Part shown: one piece after another, positions 10,911 to 34,426 of the stretch
Layout: the number at the start of each line of letters is the position of its first letter
How positions within the stretch are numbered: position 1 is the first letter of the stretch
NCBI RefSeq assembly: GCF_000152265.2
Contig: NC_021592.1
Location: 1 to 64,000 of the forward strand
Origin: Ferroplasma acidarmanus Fer1
Lineage (GTDB): Archaea > Thermoplasmatota > Thermoplasmata > Thermoplasmatales > Thermoplasmataceae
DNA length: 64,000 nucleotides
Direction of reading: 5' to 3'
Notes under the pieces: model-generated
The model's database searches: none
What the model was told of the DNA's origin: nothing
The model's input: only the letters and a program-made list of their open reading frames with translations
Made by a program: the position numbers and the translations under genes

Positions 10911-13580
10911 ATGTATAATTTATTTGAAAAACCCTTTAAACTCTCAAATGAGCAAATAAAACCTGTTAATTCCTCATCTAGATATATAAAGATTTTAGCA
11001 GGAGCAGGTGCAGGGAAAACAGAGGTGTTAACCAGAAGAATAGTAAATTTGCTGTTAAACACGGATGCACCTCCAGAATCTATAGTAGCATTCACATTCA
11101 CCGATAAAGCCGCTAAAGAGATGAAAAATAGGGTATTAAAGAGAATACAGGAAATAGCTCCTCAATTTAACACTTCGAGTATATTGAATATGTATATAGG
11201 AACTATTCACTCATTTTGTTTAAGATTATTGCAGGAGCACTTTGACTACGGTATGTATAAAACAGTTGATCAGAACCAGGAAATGGCGTATATATTACAA
11301 AATGGATATACTTACGGCCTTAAACAAGTAGAAGGTTCAACCTATTCAGATAAATGTATCAATTTTCAGAAAACACTTGATATATATTATGGCGAGGAGA
11401 TACCAAGAGACAACATTAATGAACTAAATCCTAATTTTATAAAAATATTAGATAGATATGAAAATAGTATGAATAAAAATAAAATTATTTCGTTTTCACA
11501 ACTCATTTACTTTGCTGTGAACAAAATTAAGGATAATAAAGAAAAAATAAGTAATATAAAGTATCTCCTGGTCGATGAATACCAGGATATTAATAAAGTA
11601 CAGTACGATTTAATTAAACAAATAGGAGAAAATGCAAGCATATTTGCCGTGGGCGACCCAAGACAGAGTATATATGAATGGAGAGGTTCTAATTATAAAT
11701 ATTTTGAAGAGTTCAGCAACGATTTTTCAAACGCTGAAGAATTCACATTAAATGAAAATAGAAGAAGCACAAAAAGCATTGTCAATATTTCCAATACAAT
11801 AGTTAAGCAATTTCCAGATAACCCCGGATATCCTGATATGGTGCCGGTAAGAGAAAAATCAGGTGATGTAATTGCAACTGAATATGAAAACGCTTCTAGA
11901 GAAGCGGAAGGTATCGCAAATAAAATAAAATGTGAAATAAAGAAAGATAAAAAATATTCAAAATTTGCCGTATTATTGCGGAGTGTAAATACTTCAGGAG
12001 ACCTGATAATAGATGAATTTAAAAAACAAAAAATTCCTTATCTGGTTGCTGGCAATGCAGGATTATTCAAGAGGGGAGAAGTTTTAGCACTTGCACAGAT
12101 ATTTTGCTGGTTTGCAGATGACGGTTTCTGGTATGTTGGCAGGTATAAATTAACAGACAACGAGTTGTTAGAGAAAGCAATAGAAAACTGGGAAACCACA
12201 GTTAATAAATTAAATAATAATATTAAAGACGACTTAAACCACATAAAATCTAGCCTAAATTCATATGGTGATTACAGGGTATTATACCAGGATGTTTTGA
12301 AGCGGTTTGATTATTCGGCATTGGATCAGGACAATGATCTTGACAATGCTATATTAGCTAATATAGGTAGATTCACAAAGGTTTTAGGTGATTATGAGCA
12401 ATCTGTGCGTTATGGAGGGGGAAACAAAAACATTCAAAAGGAAATGAAAGATTTATGCTGGTTTATAAACACCTATGCAAATCATTCTTACCAGGAGGCG
12501 AAAATTGAAGACCTTTCTAAAGATAACGTTGTCACAGTGAGTACGATACATCAATCTAAAGGTCTAGAATGGCAAACTGTTTTTTTACCGTCTATAATAA
12601 ATAAAAGATTTCCGTCGTTAACTCATTTTAAGTCTAATTTAATGATAGATCAATCATTGTACGAGTATAGTAGATATGAAACAAGCCTTGATAGCGAGTA
12701 CCGGTTATTTTATGTTGCTGTCACAAGAGCGAAAAATTATTGTTTAATGAGCAATTTCTCCGCGTATCCTACAGGGAGAAAAACGAGCGAAAGCGAGTTT
12801 ATGAGGATAATAGATAAATATGAGCCAGTAGAAGATATTGAAATTGAAACCGAAGATAATTTCAATTCAACCGATGTTTTTTCTATTCCGGTCACATCCT
12901 TGATTGATTATAAAAGGTGTCCATATCATTATAAATTATCTAAAGAGTGGGGATATACACAGGGAGTAAGTCCCTTTATGGGATATGGCGAAGCTTTACA
13001 TTACATTTTACAATGCTTATCGGAAGCAATAATAAATAACAAACAAATCGACGAACATTACATCGAAAATGTTGTAAATACTAAATTCTTTTTGCCATTC
13101 GCATCAACACAGTTTCTAGACAATCAAAAGAAGGACATAAATAAAAAAATAAAGCTGATTTTTGATACTTACCTAAAAAATAATAAAATCAGCGAAGTAG
13201 AATCAAGGATAGAATTTCCGGTAGAAAATGCAATTATAGATGGTAAAATCGATGTAATAATTGATAAACACGGTAATGCGGAAATTAGAGATTACAAGAC
13301 TTCGGAAGATGTTGTTACAAAAGAGGAGGCAGATATGCAGATACTATTATATGCTGAAGGTTTAAGAAGTCAGGGTTATCATGTTACAAAGGTTTCTACC
13401 ATTTCCATAAAAACCAATGAAAAGAATGAACAAGAAATAGATGATAACATAATAAGCGAAAATAAGAAAAGAACGGAAGGTCTAATAAACTCTTTGAAAA
13501 ATGGGGAGTTCAAAGGTAAAAAATCTAAGTTCTGTGACAGATGTGAATACCTAGAAATTTGTAAATATAAAACGGATTAA
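10911..13580 (+). CDS. UvrD-type helicase fused to Cas4/AddB-like Fe-S nuclease
   Basis: An 889-aa SF1A helicase-nuclease. Helicase motifs: Walker A AGAGAGKTEVL near residue 30-40, motif Ia FTFTDKAAKEMK, Walker B LLVDEYQDIN (about 225), motif III GDPRQSIYEWRG, motif V STIHQSKGLEW and motif VI RLFYVAVTRAK. The C-terminal 220 residues carry a PD-(D/E)XK core (GKIDVIIDK then EIRDYKTSE). One upstream Cys (YKRCPYHYKL) and three terminal Cys (CDRCEYLEIC) fit a 4Fe-4S cluster of the AddB/Cas4 type. Such fusions process DNA ends. It opens the + strand cluster, divergent from cas. A second protein of the same build lies at 21531-24305. Whether it serves CRISPR, repair or separate defence cannot be read from sequence. 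Confidence 0.92.
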   Translation: MYNLFEKPFKLSNEQIKPVNSSSRYIKILAGAGAGKTEVLTRRIVNLLLNTDAPPESIVAFTFTDKAAKEMKNRVLKRIQEIAPQFNTSSILNMYIGTIHSFCLRLLQEHFDYGMYKTVDQNQEMAYILQNGYTYGLKQVEGSTYSDKCINFQKTLDIYYGEEIPRDNINELNPNFIKILDRYENSMNKNKIISFSQLIYFAVNKIKDNKEKISNIKYLLVDEYQDINKVQYDLIKQIGENASIFAVGDPRQSIYEWRGSNYKYFEEFSNDFSNAEEFTLNENRRSTKSIVNISNTIVKQFPDNPGYPDMVPVREKSGDVIATEYENASREAEGIANKIKCEIKKDKKYSKFAVLLRSVNTSGDLIIDEFKKQKIPYLVAGNAGLFKRGEVLALAQIFCWFADDGFWYVGRYKLTDNELLEKAIENWETTVNKLNNNIKDDLNHIKSSLNSYGDYRVLYQDVLKRFDYSALDQDNDLDNAILANIGRFTKVLGDYEQSVRYGGGNKNIQKEMKDLCWFINTYANHSYQEAKIEDLSKDNVVTVSTIHQSKGLEWQTVFLPSIINKRFPSLTHFKSNLMIDQSLYEYSRYETSLDSEYRLFYVAVTRAKNYCLMSNFSAYPTGRKTSESEFMRIIDKYEPVEDIEIETEDNFNSTDVFSIPVTSLIDYKRCPYHYKLSKEWGYTQGVSPFMGYGEALHYILQCLSEAIINNKQIDEHYIENVVNTKFFLPFASTQFLDNQKKDINKKIKLIFDTYLKNNKISEVESRIEFPVENAIIDGKIDVIIDKHGNAEIRDYKTSEDVVTKEEADMQILLYAEGLRSQGYHVTKVSTISIKTNEKNEQEIDDNIISENKKRTEGLINSLKNGEFKGKKSKFCDRCEYLEICKYKTD

Positions 13581-13884: not shown

Positions 13885-15240
13885 ATGGAAAATTCATTGG
13901 CATCAAAAATGGAGATAAGGGATTATCAACAAGATGCCGTTAATAAGTGGAAAAATCATAATATGAATGGAATTTTTGAAATGGCCACTGGTACTGGAAA
14001 AACTTATACATCAATTCTATGTATAAATGAATTAATACAAACCAATGAGAAATTACTAATCGTTATAGCATGTCCCTATGTACATTTATTAACTCAATGG
14101 CAGAAAAGCCTCAATAATGTCGGATTGACTAGTATATTTAATACCAATATAACTAAATGGAAAGAGAAATTGGGTCAAGAAATTATTAAATTAAGGTATA
14201 GTTCCAAGATCTTAATAATATTGACAACACATAATACTTTAGCAAATAATGAATTTTTGAATATACTAAGCAGTAGTGATTATCCAAAATTCCTTATAGT
14301 TGACGAAGTCCATGATATTGGTTCCGCACAACATAGATTGGGATTATCTGAAATGTTTCAATATAGACTTGGATTAAGTGCTACTCCTCAAAGATATTTT
14401 GATGAGGAGGGAACAGAATTTATTTTAAATTATTTCTCTGGCATAGTTTATACATTTTCTTTAAAAGAGGCTCTAGAACATATAAATCCAGATACGAATA
14501 AATCATTTATTGTGCATTATGACTATATTCCCTATTTTATTGATTTAACTCCTGACGAGGGGGAAAAATATATAGAAATAACCAAGAAATTAGTAAAAAT
14601 ATACAACGTGAAAGAATTTCAGGATGTGAAAGAAAGGTTACTGTTCAAAAGACAAAATATTTTAAAAAACGCCACCAATAAATATAATATCTTAAACATT
14701 ATAATGGATAATTTTATAAAATCTTATAATACAAGTAATACTTTAATTTATTGTTCTCCTCAGCAAATTGATGAGGTTCAGAATTTATTATCAGAAAAAA
14801 ATATAATAAATCATAAATTCACAATGATTGAAGGAACTAAACCAGATAAGAAATATAATGGTTTAAGTGAAAGAGATTTTATATTACATAAATTTTCGGA
14901 AGGTGCTTACAGCACTCTCGTTGCAATGAAATGCCTTGATGAGGGTGTTGATGTACCATCAATTAAAAATGCAATATTGATGTCAAGCAGCGGTAATTTG
15001 AGGGAATGGTACCAACGAATGGGTAGAATTTTGAGAAGAGACAAAAATAAAGACCATGCGTATATATATGATATAATTGTAAAGCCCGTAAAAAGTGCTT
15101 TAATAGAGTATAAAAACATTGAGTACAAATTATTCGAGAAAGAATTATCAAGATATACAGAATTTATTTCAAATGCTGATAATCGTTTAGAATGCTGGAA
15201 TAAGTTACATGCAGTAAAAAAAGAGTTGGGGATGATATAA
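13885..15240 (+). CDS. SF2 DEAH/ResIII-type helicase
   Basis: A 451-aa compact superfamily 2 helicase of the XPB/type III restriction (ResIII) group. Motif Q-like YQQDAVNKW is followed by Walker A MATGTGKTYTS (about 30-40), Walker B VDEVHDIGS (about 155), motif III GLSATPQRY and motif VI YQRMGRILRR (about 385). No nuclease or accessory domain is fused. It is the first gene of a four-gene unit: its TAA shares one base with the next ATG, and that gene overlaps the SMC-like ATPase gene. The combination suggests a DNA-sensing or translocating partner, which is inference. Confidence 0.9.
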   Translation: MENSLASKMEIRDYQQDAVNKWKNHNMNGIFEMATGTGKTYTSILCINELIQTNEKLLIVIACPYVHLLTQWQKSLNNVGLTSIFNTNITKWKEKLGQEIIKLRYSSKILIILTTHNTLANNEFLNILSSSDYPKFLIVDEVHDIGSAQHRLGLSEMFQYRLGLSATPQRYFDEEGTEFILNYFSGIVYTFSLKEALEHINPDTNKSFIVHYDYIPYFIDLTPDEGEKYIEITKKLVKIYNVKEFQDVKERLLFKRQNILKNATNKYNILNIIMDNFIKSYNTSNTLIYCSPQQIDEVQNLLSEKNIINHKFTMIEGTKPDKKYNGLSERDFILHKFSEGAYSTLVAMKCLDEGVDVPSIKNAILMSSSGNLREWYQRMGRILRRDKNKDHAYIYDIIVKPVKSALIEYKNIEYKLFEKELSRYTEFISNADNRLECWNKLHAVKKELGMI

Positions 15241-15443
15241 TGAACAAAATTCAATTTAGTATTTTGACAAGGATAGATGAAGAAATAGATAAATTAGACT
15301 GTGATAGTAACATAAAGAATTTTTTAAAGGATGCTTTGAGTTTAGAATATGAATTCAGGGATAATGAAAAACCAAGGGTTACGTCGATGTATAACGGGTT
15401 GATTGAAAAGTATATAGATGGTGAGGAAGATGTACATCAATAA
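15240..15443 (+). CDS. Small acidic protein between helicase and SMC-like ATPase
   Basis: A 67-aa hydrophilic, acidic, probably helical protein of unrecognised family. It is supported as a gene by context: its ATG overlaps the helicase stop by one base, its 3' end overlaps the SMC-like gene start, and its composition is like its neighbours. It could be a small bridging subunit between the helicase and the ATPase. No motif supports a function. Confidence 0.65.
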   Translation: MNKIQFSILTRIDEEIDKLDCDSNIKNFLKDALSLEYEFRDNEKPRVTSMYNGLIEKYIDGEEDVHQ

Positions 15444-17355
15444 CATAATAATAAAAAACTTCAGGTTATATAAAAATGTTAATATTGATTTCAATAGTGC
15501 TAATAATAAAAATATAGCTATAATAATAGGTGATAATGGCAAAGGTAAAACAACATTTTTAAATGCAATTGCCTGGTGTCTTTATGGAAAAGAATCAAAC
15601 ACATCGAAGAACATAGGGCTATCTTTAATAAACAATATTGCTAAGAACGACAATGAAAATGAAATAAGAGTTTCCATTATAATGACAGATAAACAAAAAA
15701 ATAAATTTGAAATTGTCAGAGCTCTCAATAATACTAATAACAGACCTCAATTTTATGTATTATACAAATCGGAGGATAGCAGGGAGTATCAACCAATTTT
15801 AGATGCCGAAAATTTTATCGAAAAACATTTCCCGGAATCAATTATGCATTATTTCTTATTTGATGGAGAAATGCTTGAAGAGTATTTTCAAAATGATAAT
15901 GAAAAAATTAAAAAAGAGGTATATAATTTATCAAATATTGAATTGCTGGATAAGGTAAATACACATATCAAAGCGGTGTTGACAGATATTAAATACAGGG
16001 TAAGGAATAAAAATATAATAAGTACTAATAAAATAGATACCGAAATAGAGCAAATTAATCAAGGTATTGATGAACAAACCAGATCATTAGAAAAACAAAA
16101 ACATGATATACAGGATGCTAAAAATAATAGAGACAATCTTAGAAAACAGCTACAGGGCATACCAAGTATATCAGATAAAGAAGAATTAATAGACGCATAT
16201 AAAAATGAACTTAAAAATATTAAAAAGGATAGGGATGGGATTGAAATTGAATTATATTCAACATTAATAAAGGAAGACCCTTACATAATCACCATGAAAG
16301 AGTCAAAGGAAATTACTGAAGATCTCTCCAACAAAATTGATAAGGGTGAAATTCCCCCTATGTATAAAAAAGATTTTTTAACCAATATTCTTGATAAAAA
16401 TGTGTGTATATGCGGTAGAGACCTCGATGTAGATAGTAAGAATTTATTAACTCAACTATATAACAATACAAATGAGGAAACAAATAATAGTGATAGCCTT
16501 TCAGTTTTATATCATACATTAAAAGATTTTGATTCTCATGTAAATAGTTTCAGAAATACTATACAAAACTTACACGATAAGGATGCGAAACTGGAGGATA
16601 AATTTAACAGTACTTCTAAGAGCATGGAGAAAATACAAAATGAAATTGATGGATATGATAATGAGCAAATAAAAATTTGGCAGAAGGAACTAAAGGATTA
16701 CGACGAAGAAATAGAGAACGGCGATATAAAGATAGGTGAGATTAATAGCGCTATTAATCAATTTAACAAGCAGTTACCGATTAAACAGAAAGAGTATACT
16801 GAAGCTTTAAAAAGCAACAAGGAAACAGAAGGCTATAGAAAGGAGATAAATTTTATAAATAAAATTATAGATGCAGTGAAATTATCAAAAGATAATATAA
16901 CAAATAATATGAAGAAACAAATTGAGAAAACGACAAATGAAATATTTCTAGAAATTATAGAAAAACAACAGACATTTAAAGAAGTACACATAAGTGATAA
17001 TTATAGTTTTTCAGTGAAAGATATAAATGATGAGGAATCTCTTGGTACATTAAGTGCCGGGGAACGGGAGTCTTTAGCCTTGTCATTTATCGCAGCATTA
17101 AATGATATAACCGAAATAGATGTGCCTATAATTGCAGATACTTTGTTAGGAAGGCTTGACCCAAATGTTAAGGAGAATATTGCAAATATATTTGATAATA
17201 TATTTACAGGCACACAGTTGATACTATTAGTTACTGAAAGTGAATTTACTGATAAATTTAGAAATAAAATAGAAGACAAATGTTCAGGTATTTTTAAATT
17301 AATTTATAATGAATTCATTAATGGTGCGTATACAGAGGTGATAAGAGTTGACTGA
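15430..17355 (+). CDS. DndD/Rad50-like SMC ATPase
   Basis: A 641-aa ABC-type ATPase with Walker A GDNGKGKTTF at residues 34-43, a long central coiled coil with a CxC pair in the middle (NVCICGRD, a zinc-hook-like spot), an ABC signature LSAGERESLALSF (about 545) and Walker B VPIIADTLLGRLD with a following D-loop. The head sequence (FLNAIAWCLYGKES, FLFDGEMLEEYF) resembles DndD of the phosphorothioation systems more than Rad50. The frame opens at 15418, but ATG 15430 is preferred because GGTGAGGAAG precedes it. DndA/B/C are absent nearby. It probably senses or bridges DNA with the helicase and the 142-aa protein; this role is inferred. Confidence 0.88.
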   Translation: MYINNIIIKNFRLYKNVNIDFNSANNKNIAIIIGDNGKGKTTFLNAIAWCLYGKESNTSKNIGLSLINNIAKNDNENEIRVSIIMTDKQKNKFEIVRALNNTNNRPQFYVLYKSEDSREYQPILDAENFIEKHFPESIMHYFLFDGEMLEEYFQNDNEKIKKEVYNLSNIELLDKVNTHIKAVLTDIKYRVRNKNIISTNKIDTEIEQINQGIDEQTRSLEKQKHDIQDAKNNRDNLRKQLQGIPSISDKEELIDAYKNELKNIKKDRDGIEIELYSTLIKEDPYIITMKESKEITEDLSNKIDKGEIPPMYKKDFLTNILDKNVCICGRDLDVDSKNLLTQLYNNTNEETNNSDSLSVLYHTLKDFDSHVNSFRNTIQNLHDKDAKLEDKFNSTSKSMEKIQNEIDGYDNEQIKIWQKELKDYDEEIENGDIKIGEINSAINQFNKQLPIKQKEYTEALKSNKETEGYRKEINFINKIIDAVKLSKDNITNNMKKQIEKTTNEIFLEIIEKQQTFKEVHISDNYSFSVKDINDEESLGTLSAGERESLALSFIAALNDITEIDVPIIADTLLGRLDPNVKENIANIFDNIFTGTQLILLVTESEFTDKFRNKIEDKCSGIFKLIYNEFINGAYTEVIRVD

Positions 17356-17776
17356 AAATACAGAGCCTGTATTGCTATATATAGATAAAAAATATAAAAG
17401 TAAAGAAGATCAATTATTACATAATACAGATAGTATATTTAAAAAAGCAGGCAATAAATTAGGTAATAAGGATTTGTTTATGTTAGCACTTGTAACTGGT
17501 TTCCAGGCAAGTATAAAATATCCAATTGAGAGTAGGGCGGAGTTTGATCTAAGAGTCGTTTATCTAAATGAATCTGAAAAAGCTTTGATAAAGGCCATAG
17601 CAATTAAAGAAACCGGTGATTTTAATATAATTTCAAATCCACTCAAATACTATACCATAGCGGAAGAATATGTAAATGCTGGTATTGATATACTTTATGA
17701 CCTAGGTGTAGATAAAGATTATAAAAATTATATGAATAACCTCGAAAATCAATTATTTAACTTGGTCAAAGGTTAA
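17348..17776 (+). CDS. Small partner protein of the SMC-like ATPase (DndE-like position)
   Basis: A 142-aa soluble protein starting with TTG, preceded by AGGTGAT, and overlapping the SMC-like gene by 8 nt. It contains a hydrophobic core segment (DLFMLALVTGFQ) and a later block with IAEEYVNAGIDIL. Small proteins in this position follow DndD-type ATPases, where DndE binds nicked DNA. I see no clear DndE signature (the RTGLTPN-type motif is absent), so the function is left open. It ends the four-gene unit. Confidence 0.7.
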   Translation: MTENTEPVLLYIDKKYKSKEDQLLHNTDSIFKKAGNKLGNKDLFMLALVTGFQASIKYPIESRAEFDLRVVYLNESEKALIKAIAIKETGDFNIISNPLKYYTIAEEYVNAGIDILYDLGVDKDYKNYMNNLENQLFNLVKG

Positions 17777-21530: not shown

Positions 21531-24305
21531 TCAGCTCCGGTATGAACACAGTTTTCTATAATCACATCCATCACATTTTTTGCTCTCTGGACTTGGGGGG
21601 AATTTCTTTTTCAGTATATTGTCGACAGTTTTTCCGACTTCTGCTACCGTCTTCGTAAGTTCCACATCAGAAATATCTACCTGGGTAATACTGTCATCGT
21701 CCAGATGGTGGACAATAGCCTTCTGGGGTTTGAGGTTGAGAGATTTAAGACAGGCTAAAGCATAGTATCTAAGCTGCCTGTCGTAATCAGCCGAATATAC
21801 GCCATCAATTTTTTCTGTTTTAAAGTCAATTATTTCAACCTCTTTGAGGCTACCATCAGGGTTAGTCTTTTTCAGGAGGTCAATCTGCCCTGCTATGAGT
21901 GCTTCCCCGAGAACAAACTCAAATCTTTTCTCTGTCTCAAGAATTCTGGAAAAATCCTTACTATGTTCTGCGACATAACTCCTGACAACCCTCTCAGCTG
22001 CCTTCTTCATATTATCTGACATGGCATCAGTGGCATATCTAAGGTGAAACATTCTATCTACCATTGCTACAACTTCGTCCATGTCCGGGACCTTTTCATT
22101 TCTGATATAATCTCTATGAATCATATTCAGCACGTTATGTATATTTGTCCCGTAGCCGAATCCAGCGGGCACTCCCGCATTGTATCCATAGACATTTCTG
22201 AGGAGAAAATCATTCGGACATCTCAGGTAGCTTGTTAGTTCACTGTATGAGGTAGAATATTCTCCAGTGGCCGTCCGCCTATCAGGATATCCACTCCGTG
22301 ACTTCTTTAATTGCATAGGTCCGGAAATATATTTTTCCGGCAATTCTTCAAGGAATGGGTGGTGTTTTCTTGGACGCACGCCACCTTCCGGGAATCTCGA
22401 CCATGTCATAAAGAGGTATTTCTCCGACCTGGTAAAGGCAGTGTAATAAACACGCCTTTCATCTTCATCAGTACCTGTATACCTCTCTGAATCGTAAAGC
22501 ACATTGTCCACAAAATTCCTGTCAGGTGTTCTATGGTTCGGCTTTATAAAATCCGGGACGAAAACGACAGGAAATTCAAGCCCTTTGGCTTTATGGATTG
22601 TAAGTATTTTTACGGCATTTATAATAGAGGGGTCCTGATGCTGGGGGTCTGTGTATTCTGACTTTCCGTATACACCCATGAAGGTGAAGAACCACTTTAC
22701 CTCAGAAGCTCTGAGTCTGATCCATACAGATTCATAATCTGAAATCGCCCTGCTAAGGCAGGCAAGATTGTAGTTATATTTTTCACCAAAATCGAACCTG
22801 TCTGCGCCCATAGCCTGCAGTATACGGTGATAAAATCCCTGAAGACCAAGGTCTCCAAGATAATCCTTTGTTCCCTTTGAGAGAATATCCTCCGCTTCCT
22901 TCCTTAGAGCAGCAATGTTTCTCGAAAATATTCCGGTGTCCGCTCGTGGAAAATGGTCTATAGTAAATATCCTGCTGTACATTCCGGACAGTTCACTCAA
23001 ATCAGGAACACGGTAATTCCCTTTCCCGTAACGTATTTTACATTCGAATGTATAAGCTATGGAGTGCAGTGCAAATTCCACCTCCGGCCGCTCAAATATA
23101 CTTTCACCACTGTATGCCACAGATGGTATACCCTCACGATCAAGGCGGTCAATAATTTTTTTCGCCCATTTATTGGTACGGGTCAGAACAGCAAAGTCAC
23201 TTAGAGAAAGGGAAAATGGTTTATTGTTTCTGTCCAGAAAATCTGTGCCAACGAGTTCTCCTATCTTTGATACTATAAAATCCAGCTCGTCTTTCTCATT
23301 TTCAAATTCGCAGGACTGGATATCTCCTTCCTCGTATTTCCTCTTTAAACCAGGATTCTCTGTCATTCCCTTCGGAAGACGCGAACCGTTATTCTCGATG
23401 AATTGCCTGGAAAGTTCCACCACCGCACGGGTGCTCCTGAAATTTGTGTTTAAAGCCACATCCGTACACTTTGCGGAGTTTTCTGGATTGCTGAAGTTCA
23501 TAATCAGGCCTACATCAGTTCCGCGCCAGTGGTATATTCCCTGATCATCATCACCGACAACACATATAGATTCGGTTACCGGTGACAGGAGTTCCAAAAG
23601 TGTGTTTTGAAGCTTATCGACGTCCTGAAACTCATCTACAATTATGTGTCTGACCCGGTGAGTGATGAGATTTATCTTTTCGGGATTATTTTTTAGCTCA
23701 TATACCAGATTGTATAATATTGTGGCAAAATCAAAATAGCGATCTTCCTTCAGTGAATCCATGTAATCCGCAAAGCATTTAGCGAATTCCTTATTAGTTA
23801 GATTACCGGGATCGATCTGCTCCATTAGCATTATATCGACACTCTTTAGAAATTGGCTGATTACATTGTAGTACTTGAGTCCATATGCATTTTCCAGTCT
23901 AACCAGACCGATCCTTCTATAGTAATTCTGACTCTTTGAGACGTACGCAACTCTCCTCGCATCTTCGAGAACGTCAAAGGTACGGTAATAGGGATCTAAC
24001 TCACGTAGAATATCCAGTGCAAAGCCATGAATTGTTCCGGTAAACATGTCACCGAAATCTGCCCTTTCCGGGCATTCCACATCAAGTATCTTCCTTATCC
24101 TTGTTTTGAGTTCTTCTGCAGCCTTCTCGGTGAATGTGATTGCTACAATTCCTTCGGGTTTCTCACCATCTTTGATGAGCTTGGCAACTCTTCTAGCAAT
24201 AACCTCGGTTTTTCCAGAGCCGGGACAGGCGATTACCCTTAATCTACCGGATTTATGCGCTATTGCCTTTTCCTGTTCATCTGTAAGATTGATGTCTGGA
24301 TTCAT
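21531..24305 (-). CDS. Second UvrD-type helicase with Cas4/AddB-like Fe-S nuclease
   Basis: A 924-aa SF1A helicase-nuclease. Motifs: Walker A ACPGSGKTEVIARR, ITFTEKAAEELK, Walker B IIVDEFQDVD, GDDDQGIYHWRG, TIHKAKGLEFPVVF and VYYTAFTRSEK. The C-terminus shows LRCPNDFLLRN, the PD-(D/E)XK core GQIDLLKK...IIDFKTEK and the terminal cysteines KKCDGCDYRKLC, giving the same domain build as 10911-13580 but with low similarity. Its base composition is visibly richer in G+C than its neighbours, which suggests separate acquisition. Downstream of the DISARM-like genes and on the same strand, it may add end-processing to that system. Confidence 0.92.
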   Translation of the reverse strand: MNPDINLTDEQEKAIAHKSGRLRVIACPGSGKTEVIARRVAKLIKDGEKPEGIVAITFTEKAAEELKTRIRKILDVECPERADFGDMFTGTIHGFALDILRELDPYYRTFDVLEDARRVAYVSKSQNYYRRIGLVRLENAYGLKYYNVISQFLKSVDIMLMEQIDPGNLTNKEFAKCFADYMDSLKEDRYFDFATILYNLVYELKNNPEKINLITHRVRHIIVDEFQDVDKLQNTLLELLSPVTESICVVGDDDQGIYHWRGTDVGLIMNFSNPENSAKCTDVALNTNFRSTRAVVELSRQFIENNGSRLPKGMTENPGLKRKYEEGDIQSCEFENEKDELDFIVSKIGELVGTDFLDRNNKPFSLSLSDFAVLTRTNKWAKKIIDRLDREGIPSVAYSGESIFERPEVEFALHSIAYTFECKIRYGKGNYRVPDLSELSGMYSRIFTIDHFPRADTGIFSRNIAALRKEAEDILSKGTKDYLGDLGLQGFYHRILQAMGADRFDFGEKYNYNLACLSRAISDYESVWIRLRASEVKWFFTFMGVYGKSEYTDPQHQDPSIINAVKILTIHKAKGLEFPVVFVPDFIKPNHRTPDRNFVDNVLYDSERYTGTDEDERRVYYTAFTRSEKYLFMTWSRFPEGGVRPRKHHPFLEELPEKYISGPMQLKKSRSGYPDRRTATGEYSTSYSELTSYLRCPNDFLLRNVYGYNAGVPAGFGYGTNIHNVLNMIHRDYIRNEKVPDMDEVVAMVDRMFHLRYATDAMSDNMKKAAERVVRSYVAEHSKDFSRILETEKRFEFVLGEALIAGQIDLLKKTNPDGSLKEVEIIDFKTEKIDGVYSADYDRQLRYYALACLKSLNLKPQKAIVHHLDDDSITQVDISDVELTKTVAEVGKTVDNILKKKFPPSPESKKCDGCDYRKLCSYRS

Positions 24306-25079: not shown

Positions 25080-28000
25080 TTATGCCCGGTTAATAACTCT
25101 GCATATTTCCTCATACTGTATTCTTTCCATAATTTTAAATGGTGCAGTATCATATATTATTTCCACTGGATATATTATTTTTATCCTGAATGTCGGAAAA
25201 CTCGCAAATAGTGGCAGTATACGCTTTTTTATTGATTCGTACATTGGTAAGAAATCGTATCTTGCATCTTTACTGTCTCCACCTATGTAATCCCTTAGAT
25301 CTTTTCTTATTTTCTGTATTGTTCTTGCTGACACGTAGCTTTCCTCCAAATCTTTAATTTCCAATTTAAGGTAGGGATATATTTCGTTCAATCCTCTACA
25401 GATTTTTACTAAGTCCTCCATACTTTTTGGATGCTCTATATTGTATGCTTTATATTCTTTCCCACCTGCAGAAATATTATAATACTTTGTCCACCAGCTC
25501 TTTATGTAATCCTGATTCCCTGCAGTCAATCCCAGTTTTGCAAGATATTCAGAAATAAAGTCATCACAGTCTATATGACTGTTATTTTTTCCCTTACATA
25601 GCTCCACAGCTTCTTCAATCATTCTCCTCCAGAGGGTGCTTGAATTGTATAACTCAATAAACCCATTCCACTGATAACGCTCAGACCTGAATCGTATTAT
25701 GCCTTTATATTCAAGCATGAATTTTGTAAAGATATCTTTAATTGATATACTTATGCCCCTTGAATCTATAAATATCTCTTTACCTTCCATTTTATCCTTA
25801 AGATTTTTTTTCTGAATTTCCCCTATGTCCAGAAAGTCCGGAACTCCATTTTTACTTATAGTTAGCTGGGCATCTTCCGGTATTAACATGCCAATTCCTG
25901 CCTCATTTATAATAAGATAGGCTTTTTCTCCTTTTTTTAAATAAGAATAATTTACGTAAGATTTACTGACGTTATTATTATATGTATCGGTATCAATCTC
26001 AAAATCTAGCACTCTGCCAATTACCTCATTTGATGGTATACTCACATCTTCCATAATATTTTTCAATAGATCGGGATAATTGTCACTATCGTCAGGTTTG
26101 TACAATGGTTTTGATTTACTAATAGATAGCCGGGTATCCACATTTCTTTGTATAAGTTCTATATTCTCTTCACTCCCAATGAATATCAGTTTAGTTATAT
26201 TCCCCAGATATAATGAATATCTCAATGAAGGGGGTAAAGTAGAAATCACATAATGTTCAGAATTTCCCTGAGGAGATTTCTCATGTTTATTCAAATTCTC
26301 CCATGAGCATATATCTATCTCATTTTTCACTCCGTGAGTCTCCAGGAGTTCTTTCGTTCCTTTAGTATGATATGTAACTATTGTAATAAATACATCAGGA
26401 GCCTTCATTGCTATATCTTCTATATATCTATTAATCTGGTTCATAATGGGGCTGATACTTAATTCAGAATCCATATATATGGAATTAAATATTTTTATTA
26501 GACGATCGTACTCTTCAACAGATACATTTTGACTCAGGATATTCTTTAAAATATCATAGGTAATTTCATCTTGGCCCTTGAATGTGAAAACATCATTATT
26601 TAGATAATCACCTTTTAATTTCAGAGTTGACATTTTAAGCATCTTCAGGTATCTCAGCACGTCAGATTTCACATTTTCATCAATGTTAAATGATCCAAAT
26701 ATTGATATTAACTCATCTAAATTGTCAAGTTCTTTTATCCTTATATATTCGACGTCTGGTATACGGGTGGATTCATCTGGTGGAACAAATAATGAGGAAA
26801 CAGGAGATGGATAATTGTCTGTAACACTGTTTTTTGCAGCTATTTTAGCCAGTAGCAGTTCTGAATCCCAGGTATGAACTGTTATACCATATTTATCTGT
26901 GATTCCGGTATTCTGAGAATTAATTGTATAAATATTCCTTATCGAAGGATCGGTGGAGAACATCATAATTAAAGGTATATTACTCCTTTTCACATAGTTA
27001 AGTATGTATTCTGTATCTGTATAATAGGAATAGAGGTCTTTTATAAAATAATCAACGTCTTCAATTATTAGAAATGAAGGGTTAATTTTATCAATGTATT
27101 CATAAATATTTGAAAGTTCCAGGGTCGATGGTATCATAAATAATGTTCTGTTAGAGTCCGGTATTTTATCATCTTCAGATTTTACCTGTATATTTGGAAT
27201 TACAGTTTTTAAAACTTTGATCTTCCTGTAATTTGTCAGTACATCCCATATCCACTCTTTCCTGTAATTAAGTTTCCCATATCTCTGCAATCTTTCTTCA
27301 AAAATTAGATCCATAGTTCCATTTTCATTTACCGATCTATAAACTTTCTTTTTATTCAGTTTATTCTGTAAGATACTCCTTATATATTTGTTACCATAAT
27401 TTGTGTTTATAAACCTAGTGATTTGATTTATACATGACCTGAAGCTATCAGTACATATTTCATCACGGGTAATGCCTCTCCCCACCTCTTTAATCCTGTA
27501 ATGTGTTACAGCTTTCTTTATGAATATAGATTTCTTATCAAATTTTTTGTATTCTTCCAGTATTCTACTATCCATTACATCTAGGGGTCCGTCAACGTAT
27601 AGAATATGTTTGAATGTTTCATACATGTCCGGTTCATTAATTTCATTTTCAGCCTGTTCCATGGGATTATAAATAACTACTACGTTTCCATTTCGCCTAT
27701 CACTGTCTAAGTAGTATTCTGATACCAGCAAAGGAAGAAATTTTACCCTCTTCCATGGCCACGTAATAAGGAACTTACCACGATCAATTGTTTTTATCCA
27801 TTTTAAGTAGTTATTTTCGATGATGTTAGGTTCTACTTTCCATATAAGTGGAAATTTCGATAAATACTCTTCAGACTTTCCATTATTTACCATTTTTACT
27901 GTGCCGGTATAATCTGAAAATTCATTATTTACAAAGTTTATTGAATCGGTGAAAATTGATTTACATGATGAACATATAAAAGTATTACCATCACCCTTAC

Positions 28001-28106
28001 GTACAAGCGGTAAACCGCTCTTATGAACCTCATCGCTGTTATGTGGTTCATGGCAATCAGGACATGTTATAAATTTATGGTAATATACTCTTTCATTACT
28101 GGCCAT
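25080..28106 (-). CDS. DrmE-like protein: zinc ribbon plus degenerate helicase
   Basis: A 1008-aa protein, four bases after drmB. The N-terminus holds a zinc ribbon (ITCPDCHEPHN and FICSSCKSIF). Then come two segments that look like a worn helicase: FLITWPWKRVKF where a Walker A should be (no GKT/S), LIIEDVDYF in place of a DExx box and LIMMFSTDPS in place of SAT. A second lobe has FITIVTYHTKGTKELL and HYVISTLPPSLRYS but no arginine-finger motif. It is thus probably catalytically dead for ATP hydrolysis. By position and size it corresponds to DrmE, the uncharacterised subunit of class 2 DISARM; that name is inference. Confidence 0.75.
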   Translation of the reverse strand: MASNERVYYHKFITCPDCHEPHNSDEVHKSGLPLVRKGDGNTFICSSCKSIFTDSINFVNNEFSDYTGTVKMVNNGKSEEYLSKFPLIWKVEPNIIENNYLKWIKTIDRGKFLITWPWKRVKFLPLLVSEYYLDSDRRNGNVVVIYNPMEQAENEINEPDMYETFKHILYVDGPLDVMDSRILEEYKKFDKKSIFIKKAVTHYRIKEVGRGITRDEICTDSFRSCINQITRFINTNYGNKYIRSILQNKLNKKKVYRSVNENGTMDLIFEERLQRYGKLNYRKEWIWDVLTNYRKIKVLKTVIPNIQVKSEDDKIPDSNRTLFMIPSTLELSNIYEYIDKINPSFLIIEDVDYFIKDLYSYYTDTEYILNYVKRSNIPLIMMFSTDPSIRNIYTINSQNTGITDKYGITVHTWDSELLLAKIAAKNSVTDNYPSPVSSLFVPPDESTRIPDVEYIRIKELDNLDELISIFGSFNIDENVKSDVLRYLKMLKMSTLKLKGDYLNNDVFTFKGQDEITYDILKNILSQNVSVEEYDRLIKIFNSIYMDSELSISPIMNQINRYIEDIAMKAPDVFITIVTYHTKGTKELLETHGVKNEIDICSWENLNKHEKSPQGNSEHYVISTLPPSLRYSLYLGNITKLIFIGSEENIELIQRNVDTRLSISKSKPLYKPDDSDNYPDLLKNIMEDVSIPSNEVIGRVLDFEIDTDTYNNNVSKSYVNYSYLKKGEKAYLIINEAGIGMLIPEDAQLTISKNGVPDFLDIGEIQKKNLKDKMEGKEIFIDSRGISISIKDIFTKFMLEYKGIIRFRSERYQWNGFIELYNSSTLWRRMIEEAVELCKGKNNSHIDCDDFISEYLAKLGLTAGNQDYIKSWWTKYYNISAGGKEYKAYNIEHPKSMEDLVKICRGLNEIYPYLKLEIKDLEESYVSARTIQKIRKDLRDYIGGDSKDARYDFLPMYESIKKRILPLFASFPTFRIKIIYPVEIIYDTAPFKIMERIQYEEICRVINRA

Positions 28107-28109
28107 AGG

Positions 28110-29987
28110 TTAGTCACCTGTAATTAAATGCCTATCTAGAAACATATTGCGCTGTTCACATGAAGTTTCTGATATTAAAATACAGCTATAACATGCAGCA
28201 CCGTTCTGGCTTTTACTGCCCTTGCTTACATCCAGGCAGAGTGGATCGTTGGAACATATATCAATCCGTTCCTTTGCTTTTACCAGTATCTGTTGTAGTT
28301 TTTCCTGCGTCACCAGACCGGAAAGCCCACCCATACCTGCATCCTCACCGGGGGTAGATGTATAAATCAGAATGCCCCCATTTTTCTGGTTCCTATCTAT
28401 GTAAATTCTCTCCCTCATCGATGCTGATGAATAACCGGAGTAAAGCGATAATACATTTATTATTGCGTGGGATAACGTATGAAGCCATACATATAATGGA
28501 TGTGTAACAGAAGTGTTCCCGGACATGGTGTTTTTTACATCCCCTTTCGAAAAGGTTGAGTACCACTCATTATAGGCTTTCCTCTTTTTCAAACCGGAAA
28601 ATTCACCTTCTGAAAACGTTATAAAAATTCCTTCACCTACACCCTCGAATCCCTGATACCAGTAATCATTACCATCGTGATTATCGCTTCTAATAGCTGA
28701 AGCGGATGATACAATAGGATCCAGTTCCTGGTATTCCTGGTTTTTATCTTTTTTATTCTTTTTATCAGTTGGCACCTTTCTGGTATAACCAATCTGCACA
28801 GTAGTAGTCTTTAAACGATTAACAGGATAAACATTAAGTGCGGGGAAACTATCAATACTCTTAATTATTTCATGTTTACCCATAACAAAGTTCTCACAAT
28901 TACGGGGTCCCTGTAGTAACGAATCAAATTCTTGATCTATGAAATCAATAAAATTCATCTTTCTTGTATTATTAAATTTTTCTAAAGAAGATTTTAACTT
29001 TTCAATTCCATATTCCATCAGATAATTTTTAAATATTATGTAAGTCTCTTCTAATATCCCATTAGCATTAAAAGAATCGTGGAGTTCATCCAGGATTTGA
29101 ATAATATCATCATTATTTTTCCATTTTTTTATCAGGGGATTTGCTGTCAGGAAAATCCTTGTATTGTTAAACAGGCTATTTATACCAGAATCGTATTCCG
29201 GTATTTTTACCAGCATAATAGTCAAAGGAAGGTAAAGTGATGATGCTTGTCGCTGCATCACATGCATATATTCGTCACACCCCTTTTCGCCGGAGTTTTC
29301 AGGACTTTCAGGATATTTTCCGGTACAATCAAACCTTGTGTTATAAACATCATTCATAGTAACCTCGGATTGGCATTCTGGGCACCTGATAGCTATACTG
29401 GCTAGTGATACTCCACCTGCTTTCCAGACATAATAATCTGGATTACACTCCTTAATCGAACTATTTTTATGTACTATCCATTTCCATTTAACATTATCAA
29501 GATGGCCCCTTCTGCATGCCATAAGGAACCTTACACTTGACGTATAAGTATTCTGGCACACAGGGCATTTTTTTGAATTTTTACTATTAAAGAGTACAGG
29601 GTCATCATGTTTTTTATCCGGCATTTTTCCATAACATATTTTCCATTCCGGAAATTCCAGTGTAGAGTAACGTGCCTTTTGGGATAAACGACCCTCGAGT
29701 TCAATATTCGATATAGGTGAAAATATATGTACATTATCAGTATCTTTTGGAAAGTTACCTCCTATAATTTTTCTGGACTGATACCCGTTAACAATACTCT
29801 GTATTCCGGTGCATAATCTATCATTATCTATCTCATATTTCTCGAGATTTCCCTCTGAGAATTGTCCTTGCATACCGTTAATAGTTGATTTGATTAATCG
29901 CGGGCCATATATACTTTCTATGATAGCTCCAGGCCCATACGTAAGGACAAGCTGTGACCTTCTAATTTCCTGTGTATAAATTTTCAT
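28110..29987 (-). CDS. drmB: DISARM protein DrmB (DUF1998)
   Basis: A 625-aa DUF1998 protein; in DISARM, DrmB forms a complex with the DrmA helicase and gates DNA entry. Diagnostic features are the N-terminal SQLVLTYGPGAIIE, paired CxxC sites (KCPVCQNTY, IRCPECQSEV), the DUF1998 block LHTLSHAIINVLSLYSGY, then STPGEDAGMGGLSGLV and the Cys-rich end (GAACYSCILISETSCEQRN with LDRHL). Length is in the family range. It starts right after drmA stops (1 nt between) and is followed four bases later by the DrmE-like gene. Confidence 0.93.
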   Translation of the reverse strand: MKIYTQEIRRSQLVLTYGPGAIIESIYGPRLIKSTINGMQGQFSEGNLEKYEIDNDRLCTGIQSIVNGYQSRKIIGGNFPKDTDNVHIFSPISNIELEGRLSQKARYSTLEFPEWKICYGKMPDKKHDDPVLFNSKNSKKCPVCQNTYTSSVRFLMACRRGHLDNVKWKWIVHKNSSIKECNPDYYVWKAGGVSLASIAIRCPECQSEVTMNDVYNTRFDCTGKYPESPENSGEKGCDEYMHVMQRQASSLYLPLTIMLVKIPEYDSGINSLFNNTRIFLTANPLIKKWKNNDDIIQILDELHDSFNANGILEETYIIFKNYLMEYGIEKLKSSLEKFNNTRKMNFIDFIDQEFDSLLQGPRNCENFVMGKHEIIKSIDSFPALNVYPVNRLKTTTVQIGYTRKVPTDKKNKKDKNQEYQELDPIVSSASAIRSDNHDGNDYWYQGFEGVGEGIFITFSEGEFSGLKKRKAYNEWYSTFSKGDVKNTMSGNTSVTHPLYVWLHTLSHAIINVLSLYSGYSSASMRERIYIDRNQKNGGILIYTSTPGEDAGMGGLSGLVTQEKLQQILVKAKERIDICSNDPLCLDVSKGSKSQNGAACYSCILISETSCEQRNMFLDRHLITGD

Positions 29988-29988
29988 G

Positions 29989-32900
29989 CTATATCACCTC
30001 AAAACGTATTGTTTCTTCTACCTCTCTTAAGGACTGTGGAGCGTTTTGATACACTACATATAAATTGTGATTATGCTTATGGGCAGGATCGCCCAGAACA
30101 ACATTTTTATGTAATTCGCCTGTATATGGGGGATATTCCACAAACGATAGCTTTCCATTTTTCTTCTGAATTTGCTCCGCCACATCTTTCCATATATTTT
30201 CAGTGCGATTTATACGCTCAGATATATCTATTCCTGTAATTGATTTACAACGCGTAACCATGATATTTTTAAATATTTCAATATCGTTTACAGCCTGTTC
30301 TTTTATAACTTCACAACCGCCGTCTTTTTTATACCAGTCAACATGGGAATCATATAGATTCCTCAAAAATGAAACCATTACAGGTCCCAGAACTCTGCTC
30401 AGTGTGCCTTCTGCAAATGGCAATACAGATGGAGGTTCTACTTCTGTATATGTTCTGCTGTGGTATGTAGTGAACATCTCGTAATGGCTCAGATCTCTTG
30501 GTTTACCTGCATGGAGAAATGTAACTACAAGACCGCCGTGTGACCTACCAGTTCTCCCGGTAGCCTGTATATACTGCGAAGTTGTCTTTGGCTGGCCATT
30601 TACAATCATCAGTGATAGATGTGAAATATCTACCCCGGTTCCAAACATGGAAGTTGTAAATATAGCATCAGGATTATCCTCTGGTGACTTCTCTATACCT
30701 TTTTCCAGTTCATCAAGCATGGGAGGTATATCTGTGGAATTTATTCTACTTGATAGTTCTATCGTATTGTTAGGATCAAATGCCCCTTCGTGGTTTGTTA
30801 TAGTATCCAGACGTTCTAGGATATCTTCGCGGTAAATTGAAGTCCCACCGCCAAGTTCACGAATAGCATTAAAATAACCAACTATTGTCTGGTAGTATTT
30901 TAAATTTTTATCATTGTAATTATTATTCCTCGTTTTGAGGAGCTGTGCCCAGATTCTAATCAGTGGTGTTAAAGGTCCCATTCCCGGAGAATATATTCCC
31001 ATATAAATACGGCCAGGATTTTCCTCATTCCAGATTAAACTATTTTCAATCCGTCTGCTGAAGAAATTATCTGAGATATCCATACCGTATGGTGGAAAAA
31101 TTGACACTCCACGATTAAAGAGTTGCTTTATCTGATTATCTGCATCCTTAATTGTGGCTGTCGATGCTATATATCTTGGTTTTGTACCATCTCCATTTAC
31201 TTCAATAAGCCCTTCAATTACGGATTCATATAGTCCGAACATGCTGCCTAATGCACCGGTTAATAAGTGTAATTCATCCTGGACTATAAGTTCAGGCGGT
31301 GCGAAAGGTCTGTCAATTTTAATTGAACTGCTCATTACTGATTTGGGGGAGTTATCGAATTGATGCTCATTGAAATAATACCCATAATATTTATTATAAT
31401 ATCTTATATTTCCAAATATAGAGGATGCTGCGGGTTCAAACGCTAATCTTGCTATTTTATCAACTGTACTTATTAGAATAGTAGGGCATTTACGATATAT
31501 CTGCTCGTCTACCGTATAAGCCGGCACAGGTATTCTTGAATGTTCTTTAAACGCCTCGATTTCAGTTTTTTTCTCCATATACTTATCCGGCAGTATATTT
31601 TCCCCGGTATTTATCGGAGGTACCCCCTCTATATGAAATACATTATTATTAAGAGCACATGAAGGGTTGGTACAATATATTTCAAAGTCATAGTATGTGG
31701 GTTCTCCATTCCGGGATTTTTTTCTTCGAACTTCCTTTTGCAACCCAAAATAACCCGATCTGGAAGCCCGGAAAGATGCAATTTTCATACATGTATTTTT
31801 ATCACTGATCATATCCCAGACATAATCCACAATCTGTGGTTTCAGTTTTATAGTGGAATGTACTGACATTTTTAATGTAAAATAGTTTGAGTTATGATTT
31901 GAATTTATTATGCTTTTACTGATTATATTGATTGAATTGTCTACTTTAGTATCTATATTTTGTATTATATTATACAGCTCTTCAGTTGTCCCCCTGTAGT
32001 TAAACACAAAATAAAGTGTGTTATTTCCCGGCGGTAAGCCAGCAGGTGGAATGGAAAGCCATGAACCACATGCCGGGCATCTTATAACCTGAGCAGGGTC
32101 ACCCAAATTTTGTTCATCCTTGCCGGTTAGAGCTTTTATAGCATCATCCAATGAATTGGGAGACATTGAACCACCAACCCATATCCCTGCAGAAAATCTA
32201 ATAGAGCCATATAGAAAATCATTCTTAAGCTCACATTTTTCGGGTCTCCACCCTGTAAAATTACCACTTTTCATAACTCTTAGATACTCGGCGGCAGTCA
32301 CCATTTTCATTGTTCTTGCAAATTGCTGTATAGTAAGAAGACGTAAAGTATACCGGGTTATAACGGCAGTTCCACCGCCGGTTTCTCCGCTTCTTATTCC
32401 TTTAATTCTTCTTAATGCCATATCAAACGCCATTACAGACAGGTAAGCTTCAGTTTTTCCACCTCCCGTGGGAATCCACAGAAGATCCAGAGCATCCCTG
32501 TAACTGGATTTGCTATCATTCAACGGATCAATATTAATAAGTAAAAATGCGAGCTGAAAAGGTCTTAATTTAAAATTGTCGGTTCCATTCCTCCATTTAT
32601 ACTGTAACCATAATACACGCATTGAAAAACAGAATGCCAGTCTAACATCACTATTTATTTTTAGAGCATTTATTCCATCTTCCACCCTGCGGATAAAGGT
32701 TTCCTGCCTGCTAATAAGTTCTGATGTAAGGCCAGTATTTATATTATCAGCAATCTTTCTGTTTTCATCAACCCATTTTTTATAAGCTCTAACGAGCGGA
32801 TTTAGATATCTGTTTATCTGTTCTATATCCCACATTTCAGACAGTTTATATGCTGATAAAACAGGTTCTTCCTCATATTTCTTATCCCAGTTCAACTCTG

Positions 32901-33753
32901 GTGATGGGTCAGCATAAAGAGGTATAAAATCGGTTCTGAAATCCGGGGCTTTAAATTCCTCATATGTAGCACTATTCTGCCCATAGAAATATAAGCCATC
33001 GGGCCATATAAAATTTTGAATACTTTCAGGATATTCAATATCTTTCCATACAGCAGAACACATAAATCCCCTTGCCCTAGCACTTTTATTTCTGTATAAA
33101 AAATTTAAAAGATCTTCAGAGTTATTTTCCGTAGGTAATGATACACTAATTTTTTTATCTAACCGATTCACCCTTATGGACAGCTGGAATATACTTGCTG
33201 CTGTTAACTTGTTATTATTTGCATCTGATTCAATATTGAGATTGTTTATTACTATTGCGATAATACTGTTTATGTGATTTCCAGGGGATACTTTACGCAT
33301 ATAAAGGTCTATATGCCCGTCATCGCCTTTATAAATAGAAATAAATTTCCCTGTATCATTTATCTCGATTTGGGATAAGAACTGGTATGGCGTTCTTTTC
33401 CACATTTTATCTTTTTTATGATATCTACCCCATGTTATACATATTCTAAATGATGCTTCTCCTTCAGGAACATTGAAAGAAATACCTGCTGATTTGATCC
33501 TTAATTTCGCATTCAGTTCCGAGGAAATTGGAACTGCCTTATCATCATCTGAATCATTATCTTCTGTACCATCTGTTACAGTATCATGTGATTCTGAATC
33601 CGGGTCATTGGAATGTCCAACATACGAAGATGGTATTAGTATCCCAGTGATATATTCTTTTAGCACATTTTCTTCCTCATCCATTTCTTCCTCTGCCCCA
33701 TATCTTGGGCCGTAAACCTCCTTTATCATATCTTCTATTAATTTTTCTCTCAT
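29989..33753 (-). CDS. drmA: DISARM helicase DrmA
   Basis: A 1254-aa SF2 helicase of the DrmA family, which loads on unmodified invading DNA. The acidic N-terminus is long. Walker A is LWIPTGGGKTEAYLS (about 430), Walker B is QDELHLLTGALGSM (about 835), motif III IASTATIKD and motif VI QATGRTGRSHGGLVV (about 1090). The family tail is present: GKPRDLSHYEMFTTYHS with VEPPSVLPFAEGTLSR. The gene sits directly after the glycosylase and before drmB, in the class 2 order. Confidence 0.94.
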   Translation of the reverse strand: MREKLIEDMIKEVYGPRYGAEEEMDEEENVLKEYITGILIPSSYVGHSNDPDSESHDTVTDGTEDNDSDDDKAVPISSELNAKLRIKSAGISFNVPEGEASFRICITWGRYHKKDKMWKRTPYQFLSQIEINDTGKFISIYKGDDGHIDLYMRKVSPGNHINSIIAIVINNLNIESDANNNKLTAASIFQLSIRVNRLDKKISVSLPTENNSEDLLNFLYRNKSARARGFMCSAVWKDIEYPESIQNFIWPDGLYFYGQNSATYEEFKAPDFRTDFIPLYADPSPELNWDKKYEEEPVLSAYKLSEMWDIEQINRYLNPLVRAYKKWVDENRKIADNINTGLTSELISRQETFIRRVEDGINALKINSDVRLAFCFSMRVLWLQYKWRNGTDNFKLRPFQLAFLLINIDPLNDSKSSYRDALDLLWIPTGGGKTEAYLSVMAFDMALRRIKGIRSGETGGGTAVITRYTLRLLTIQQFARTMKMVTAAEYLRVMKSGNFTGWRPEKCELKNDFLYGSIRFSAGIWVGGSMSPNSLDDAIKALTGKDEQNLGDPAQVIRCPACGSWLSIPPAGLPPGNNTLYFVFNYRGTTEELYNIIQNIDTKVDNSINIISKSIINSNHNSNYFTLKMSVHSTIKLKPQIVDYVWDMISDKNTCMKIASFRASRSGYFGLQKEVRRKKSRNGEPTYYDFEIYCTNPSCALNNNVFHIEGVPPINTGENILPDKYMEKKTEIEAFKEHSRIPVPAYTVDEQIYRKCPTILISTVDKIARLAFEPAASSIFGNIRYYNKYYGYYFNEHQFDNSPKSVMSSSIKIDRPFAPPELIVQDELHLLTGALGSMFGLYESVIEGLIEVNGDGTKPRYIASTATIKDADNQIKQLFNRGVSIFPPYGMDISDNFFSRRIENSLIWNEENPGRIYMGIYSPGMGPLTPLIRIWAQLLKTRNNNYNDKNLKYYQTIVGYFNAIRELGGGTSIYREDILERLDTITNHEGAFDPNNTIELSSRINSTDIPPMLDELEKGIEKSPEDNPDAIFTTSMFGTGVDISHLSLMIVNGQPKTTSQYIQATGRTGRSHGGLVVTFLHAGKPRDLSHYEMFTTYHSRTYTEVEPPSVLPFAEGTLSRVLGPVMVSFLRNLYDSHVDWYKKDGGCEVIKEQAVNDIEIFKNIMVTRCKSITGIDISERINRTENIWKDVAEQIQKKNGKLSFVEYPPYTGELHKNVVLGDPAHKHNHNLYVVYQNAPQSLREVEETIRFEVI

Positions 33754-33754
33754 T

Positions 33755-34426
33755 TTATTTCATCTCTTTGTGGAAAATGCAGTCTCTATTTAATCCACAC
33801 ACACTGCATTCTGGTGTGTGATGTGTACAAACTATCGCAGCAAAATCTAGCATGGAAAACATTAGCTTCCTTGTGTCAGATGAGTCAATAATACTGTTCA
33901 TTATCATTTTAAATTCCTTACTTCTTCTTGAGGAATCTGTAGGCTTGATGCCATACACCCTGCTTATTATTCTCACCGTGTTGGTATCCAGAAATGGTGC
34001 TGGAGACTTATACGCAGAACACATTACAGCTGAGGCTGCATAGTCGCCTATTCCGGGTAGAGATGCAAGGTCATTAATGTTGTCCGGAATATTGCCATCA
34101 TATTTTTCAATAATCTGGGCAGCTAGTCTATAAAGCATATCACCTCTATATGATAAACCTAGAGATTTCAGATCATTTTTTAATGCATGCGGACCAGCAT
34201 CTACTATGGCATATATATCGGGATATTTCATTATGAAACTGTCATAAATACGGTTCACTTGCTCCGCTCTTGTCCTGTGAAGCATGATCTCGGCAATTAA
34301 AATTTTATATGGATCTCCGGTATGCCTCCATGGAAAGTTCCTCATGTTTTTCTCTCCCCATGCAAGTATAATATTCCTGATCCTGAACGAAATGTCACTT
34401 TCCTCCTTCTTATTTATCTCCATCAT
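33755..34426 (-). CDS. MIG-like T:G mismatch DNA glycosylase (HhH-GPD, Fe-S)
   Basis: A 223-aa HhH-GPD glycosylase of the endonuclease III/MutY/MIG branch. The helix-hairpin-helix is LPGIGDYAASAVMC, with Tyr where endonuclease III has its catalytic Lys, as in Mig.MthI and unlike endonuclease III. The catalytic Asp follows in APFLDTNTVRIISR. The 4Fe-4S ligands are spaced C-x6-C-x2-C-x5-C (CTHHTPECSVCGLNRDC). There is no MutY C-terminal NUDIX domain. The ATG overlaps the methylase stop (ATGA), and it precedes drmA. It would remove T from T:G pairs left when 5-methylcytosine deaminates. Confidence 0.9.
   Translation of the reverse strand: MMEINKKEESDISFRIRNIILAWGEKNMRNFPWRHTGDPYKILIAEIMLHRTRAEQVNRIYDSFIMKYPDIYAIVDAGPHALKNDLKSLGLSYRGDMLYRLAAQIIEKYDGNIPDNINDLASLPGIGDYAASAVMCSAYKSPAPFLDTNTVRIISRVYGIKPTDSSRRSKEFKMIMNSIIDSSDTRKLMFSMLDFAAIVCTHHTPECSVCGLNRDCIFHKEMK

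Follow-up and report, generated by a model that had tools for sequence, protein, structure and literature searches.

PbeABCD of Haloterrigena jeotgali, which acts together with DndCDEA, is one of the closest described systems (Xiong et al. 2019, PMC6459918). Its four genes encode, in this order, a helicase with a PLD/HKD domain (PbeA), a protein of about 66 aa, a DndD-like ATPase and, at the end, a small protein of about 150 aa. The cassette requires phosphorothioation by DndCDEA. The haloarchaeal system blocks replication of viral DNA, and full protection needs all four pbe genes, with slight protection remaining after deletion of pbeA (PMC6459918). Solitary Pbe cassettes, which lack sulfur genes, account for 320 of 553 cassettes, and a base-modifying gene is located near 155 of these 320 (PMC6459918). 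A 2011 paper describes dnd_restrict_1 and dnd_assoc_4, two families that matter here, as depending on phosphorothioation of DNA (PMC3226654).

The CxC ABC-ATPase/DndE systems (Rakesh et al. 2024, PMC10853773) comprise an ATPase with a CxC hook, a DndE-like protein with two ribbon-helix-helix units, a small protein and an SF2 helicase, and phosphorothioation genes are often missing. In the "vast majority" of them, a wording that stops short of all, the helicase is fused to an HKD DNase (PMC10853773). The published views on their action conflict: Xiong et al. could not detect cleavage of viral DNA (PMC6459918), whereas Rakesh et al. expect the HKD domain of PbeA to cut and argue for cleavage as part of the action (PMC10853773).

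The four-gene cassette and its surroundings

The window, the whole stretch of 64,000 nucleotides that was analysed, belongs to the single-contig genome of Ferroplasma acidarmanus Fer1 (1,935,211 bases, 99.7% complete). Four genes on the plus strand occupy positions 13885-17776, and neighbouring genes overlap by 1, 14 and 8 nt, in agreement with an earlier note on this DNA that had described them as overlapping or touching at these coordinates. They encode a PbeA-like SF2 helicase of 451 aa (13885-15240), a small protein of 67 aa in the position of pbeB (15240-15443), PbeC, a CxC-type (zinc-hook) ABC ATPase of 641 aa related to DndD (15430-17355), and PbeD, a DndE-like protein of 142 aa with two ribbon-helix-helix units (17348-17776). 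The co-directional order of helicase, small protein, ABC ATPase and small DndE-like protein is that of PbeABCD in H. jeotgali, and the gene assignment agrees with the published one for PbeA, B, C and D (PMC10853773). All helicase motifs, including Walker A, and all ABC motifs are intact.

The helicase is assigned to the PbeA type by its match to PADLOC PDLC02707 (8e-144), which covers only profile positions 247-668 of 672, and by its place within the PbeA tree; NCBIfam TIGR04095 (dnd_restrict_1) matches at 2e-118, below its cut-off. The 67-aa protein has no family match in PADLOC, Pfam and NCBIfam profile searches, so its identity as PbeB is based on position and on weak similarity (39% to the copy of the same-genus genome described below). 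A short ORF of similar size fills the gap between pbeA and pbeC in most related loci with pbeA. PbeC most likely starts at the ATG at 15430, which is preceded by GGTGAG. It matches PADLOC PDLC02720 with 1429 bits over positions 1-624 of 624, a full-length score that suggests its inclusion in the seed of that profile, while the best DndD model reaches 180 bits. The CxC hook is present as CICG at residues 326-329, and the P-loop and signature motif are intact. PbeD starts with TTG, preceded by AGGTGAT. A sequence search against the PDB gave no match, and the match to TIGR04062 (dnd_assoc_4) is weak (28.7 bits, cut-off 74). In the AlphaFold2 model (pLDDT 89) the order strand-helix-helix occurs twice, and the ten best PDB matches found by Foldseek are all DndE (4lrv/5wtu/7x4e), with probabilities of up to 0.96. 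The E-values of about 0.14 are weak and not significant on their own; that DndE alone fills the top ten is telling, and PbeD is predicted to be DndE-like.

The cassette is almost certainly PbeABCD, alias the CxC-ATPase/DndE system. The earlier note had recognised a DndD/DndE-type module joined to a helicase, which holds for the DndD-related PbeC and for PbeD in its predicted structure and position. Its suggestion of an undescribed defence system does not stand, as PADLOC and NCBIfam recognise PbeA and PbeC (dnd_restrict_1, dnd_assoc_4), and PbeABCD and its solitary copies have already been published. By the note's own account the suggestion was to fall if a search of defence databases returned a known, named system, which the PADLOC search did.

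The surroundings are as the note described them, with CRISPR-Cas on one side and DISARM genes on the other. A CRISPR array (15-915) contains a 24-bp core repeat 14 times with a spacing of 66-69 bp and lies beside a type I Cas operon encoding Cas3, Cas8b-like and Cas6 proteins. The Pbe cassette lies between two UvrD helicase/PD-(D/E)XK nuclease paralogues of 28% identity, at 10911-13580 (plus strand) and 21531-24305 (minus strand). The DISARM-like set on the minus strand (25080-35583) includes DrmA, DrmB and DrmMII, an HhH-GPD glycosylase (33755-34426) and a 1008-aa protein without family match (25080-28106); no DrmC was found among the proteins scanned. The DISARM cytosine methyltransferase (34423-35682, minus strand) would lack motif I if it started at the first ATG (35583), and FSGAGGLSEGF is encoded in frame upstream of this ATG. 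Judging from the sequence, the likely start codon is a non-canonical ACG (35682) that follows a good ribosome site, and the gene may be weakly translated. Beside the DISARM genes lies the gene of an 878-aa protein without Pfam match (36536-39172), and an ATPase-like protein further along (51820-53028) matches the PADLOC candidate defence family PDC-S27.

The same-genus Thermoplasmata archaeon WH1.bin9 (G008/L005/L044; JAKAAT010000002) has these four genes in identical order, with amino acid identities of 65, 39, 44 and 64% for A, B, C and D. The neighbours there are metabolic genes and a transposase, with no CRISPR or DISARM beside the cassette, unlike in the window. Across the 86 Pbe loci examined, PbeA, PbeC and PbeD are contiguous in 55, and the exceptions are mostly cyanobacterial. 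A chance arrangement is excluded by these contiguous loci and the same-genus synteny, and the conservation of gene order that the earlier note had proposed to check is borne out. A PbeA match at E <= 1e-40 occurs in 7 of 390 sampled genomes of the phylum and is absent from another genome of the window's own species, a sporadic distribution typical of defence genes. Occurrence of PbeC in viral contigs is rare (one weak match of 32%), and its relatives on plasmids are distant (21-26%).

Absence of the HKD domain from PbeA

PbeABCD and its solitary form are already known; less ordinary is a PbeA without HKD domain. This is the one unusual feature of the cassette, and the earlier note had missed it. 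The profile match of PbeA starts at position 247, so the N-terminal HKD domain is absent, and alignment with HKD-bearing relatives agrees. Among the window ORFs of at least 50 aa, none matches the HKD HMM. Upstream of pbeA there is no room for the domain, with stops in all three frames, and an HKD domain encoded as a separate ORF beside the cassette was also rejected, as there is none in the window. The fusion of HKD domain and helicase that typifies the vast majority of systems is lacking, and the cassette is therefore counted as a variant and not as a typical PbeABCD member.

Scoring of 70 PbeA helicase domains found 49 with HKD domain and 19 without, and two lie at contig ends. One of the 49, L089, owes its score to a chance motif without HKD HMM match, and groups with cyanobacterial HKD-less proteins in the helicase tree. 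The domain is also absent from the PbeA proteins of WH1.bin9 and of G299, another Thermoplasmatota genome. In the helicase-domain tree of all 70 proteins the HKD label changes four times, or three times if L089 is rescored. Well-supported branches require at least three changes, in the genus of the window, in G299 and in cyanobacteria, with the position of G299 being less sure on its long branch. Since the PbeA proteins of the window and WH1.bin9 are nested within a group of HKD-bearing archaeal and bacterial proteins with 99% support, loss is the likely direction. The HKD domain has thus likely been lost at least three times among the 70 PbeA.

The cyanobacterial PbeA-like helicases (L067-L099) are likewise SF2 proteins without HKD domain, adjoined in many loci by a small ORF and a CxC ATPase. 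They differ in representing a separate loss in the tree, in an N-terminus that is mostly longer by about 45 residues, in having no DndE-like gene adjacent, and in the presence of DndC nearby in several loci. Between the window and WH1.bin9, synonymous sites in the four genes are saturated and dN is 0.26-0.53, so that all four genes are apparently under purifying selection. The HKD-less form of the cassette has been kept long-term in this genus. In the literature examined, a PbeA without HKD domain is only implied, and an earlier mention may exist, for example in the 2020 work on CxC systems. That paper was probably the first to describe these systems.

Candidate self-marks

The absence of sulfur-modification genes reported for the 64 kb extends to the complete 1.935-Mb single-contig genome, which contains no match to DndC. 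None over the cut-off was found in six other Pbe-bearing genomes of the phylum Thermoplasmatota. A canonical DndD is missing too, as PbeC scores 177 bits against NCBIfam TIGR03185 (DndD), under the cut-off of 246, and the locus is not DndABCDE. As there is no DndC, the cassette is not assigned to the phosphorothioation-based DndCDEA-PbeABCD system, on which the cassette of H. jeotgali depends. The self-mark cannot be a phosphorothioate made by DndC.

A candidate self-mark would be base methylation in trans, provided by the DISARM cytosine methyltransferase or by adenine/N4-type methyltransferases elsewhere in the genome. Alternatively, invading DNA might be recognised by its state. The DISARM enzyme is the only C5 methyltransferase of the genome and is encoded 17 kb from the cassette; the other adenine/N4-type methyltransferase genes are located far from it. 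Convergent genes for Dam and a circularly permuted N4/N6 methyltransferase occur with the gene of a 202-aa protein of no assigned family (G000:C1:482871-485416, L103), and a trio of this type is also found in WH1.bin9, about 10 kb past pbeD. In another genome, G115, the Pbe cassette is adjoined by genes for Dam and a DpnII endonuclease. The Dam and permuted N4/N6 pair (483.7-485.4 kb) is regarded as no more than a lead to a modification partner: about 15 genomes without PbeA match have strong homologues of the permuted gene, and the G115 set resembles an ordinary GATC restriction-modification system.

A radical-SAM protein (CxxxCxxC) is encoded next to or near Pbe in 20 of the 86 loci, from archaea and many bacterial phyla, with examples at L022:8502-9761, L043:5398-6717 and L028:6341-7747; one copy scores as B12-binding. 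This neighbour occurs in 18 of 47 loci without DndC versus 0 of 23 with DndC (Fisher p 0.0003, kinship ignored). The gene is also found in other operons without PbeA, some of which contain a GHKL-looking ATPase. A role of the radical-SAM protein as alternative modification partner is possible in other Pbe loci. For the window cassette it was rejected, since the gene is absent from the genome.

Possible mode of action

The locus is read as a complete PbeABCD cassette, nuclease-less and solitary, that blocks foreign DNA without cutting it, with a probability of about 0.6. In the proposed mechanism, PbeC would dimerise through its zinc hook and, together with PbeD, scan or clamp DNA, and PbeB would serve as adaptor or regulator. 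Once foreign DNA is recognised, the PbeC-PbeD complex would load PbeA. By translocating, PbeA would then strip or stall the replication machinery, leaving viral DNA uncopied and uncut. Taken by itself, a non-cleaving action of this cassette is judged a little short of an even chance. Against it stands that the relative for which non-cleaving action was reported bears the HKD domain and depends on phosphorothioate. More tentative is the full proposal that an HKD-less, phosphorothioate-free Pbe is a working defence that would halt the replication of invaders through nothing but ATP-driven translocation, with another self-mark.

Cutting by a nuclease supplied in trans is unlikely, and is the strongest of the alternatives. 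The enzyme could be the upstream UvrD/PD-(D/E)XK protein (10911-13580), whose gene ends 305 nt before pbeA and has the same direction, or an HKD-helicase encoded elsewhere in the genome. Cleavage would be in line with the expectation of Rakesh et al. (PMC10853773). In WH1.bin9 a separate gene for an HKD-SF2 protein follows pbeD at a distance of about 2.5 kb, and its 59%-identical relative is located near 1.867 Mb in the window genome (G000:C1; L102:768-5187). However, in WH1.bin9 no UvrD gene adjoins the cassette, and metabolic genes stand between pbeD and the HKD-helicase gene. A TnpB-like gene splits the relative of this gene in the window genome. The missing adjacency in WH1.bin9 also led to rejection of the UvrD/PD-(D/E)XK gene as a fifth cassette member. 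In Methanobrevibacter, relatives of the HKD/SF2 helicase with 34-35% identity are encoded about 2-3 kb from Pbe. Action of the motor alone is favoured over a nuclease in trans, since conservation in the genus extends to the four-gene unit but not to the neighbouring nuclease genes, and since the one candidate HKD-helicase gene of the genome is interrupted.

Somewhat less probable still is a decaying, non-functional remnant that has lost its nuclease domain and modification genes. It would account for the joint absence of the HKD domain and DndC, and possible inactivity of solitary copies was raised by Xiong et al. (PMC6459918). Against this, the four ORFs and their motifs are intact, a second species retains the HKD-less form (39-65% identity, with dN far below the saturated dS), and comparable HKD losses are seen in other lineages, again with the helicase intact.

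An undescribed system that is independent of Pbe and has only taken over a DndD/DndE-type pair is very improbable: the small and last proteins lack a strong family match, but helicase and ATPase are full-strength PbeA and PbeC matches, gene order, small protein and DndE fold fit Pbe, and the helicase nests among HKD-bearing PbeA. Equally improbable is a housekeeping DNA-repair module of a Rad50-like ATPase and an XPB-like helicase, to which distant similarity to Rad50/SMC and XPB structures would point, as the distribution is sporadic even within the species and the neighbours form a defence island.

Natural nuclease-less cassettes under selection provide ready material on whether cutting is needed in these systems. 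They also sharpen the question of how solitary Pbe distinguishes self from non-self. If defence by the motor alone is true, DNA cleavage would be dispensable in the Pbe/CxC-DndE family, and self-recognition could use another mark.
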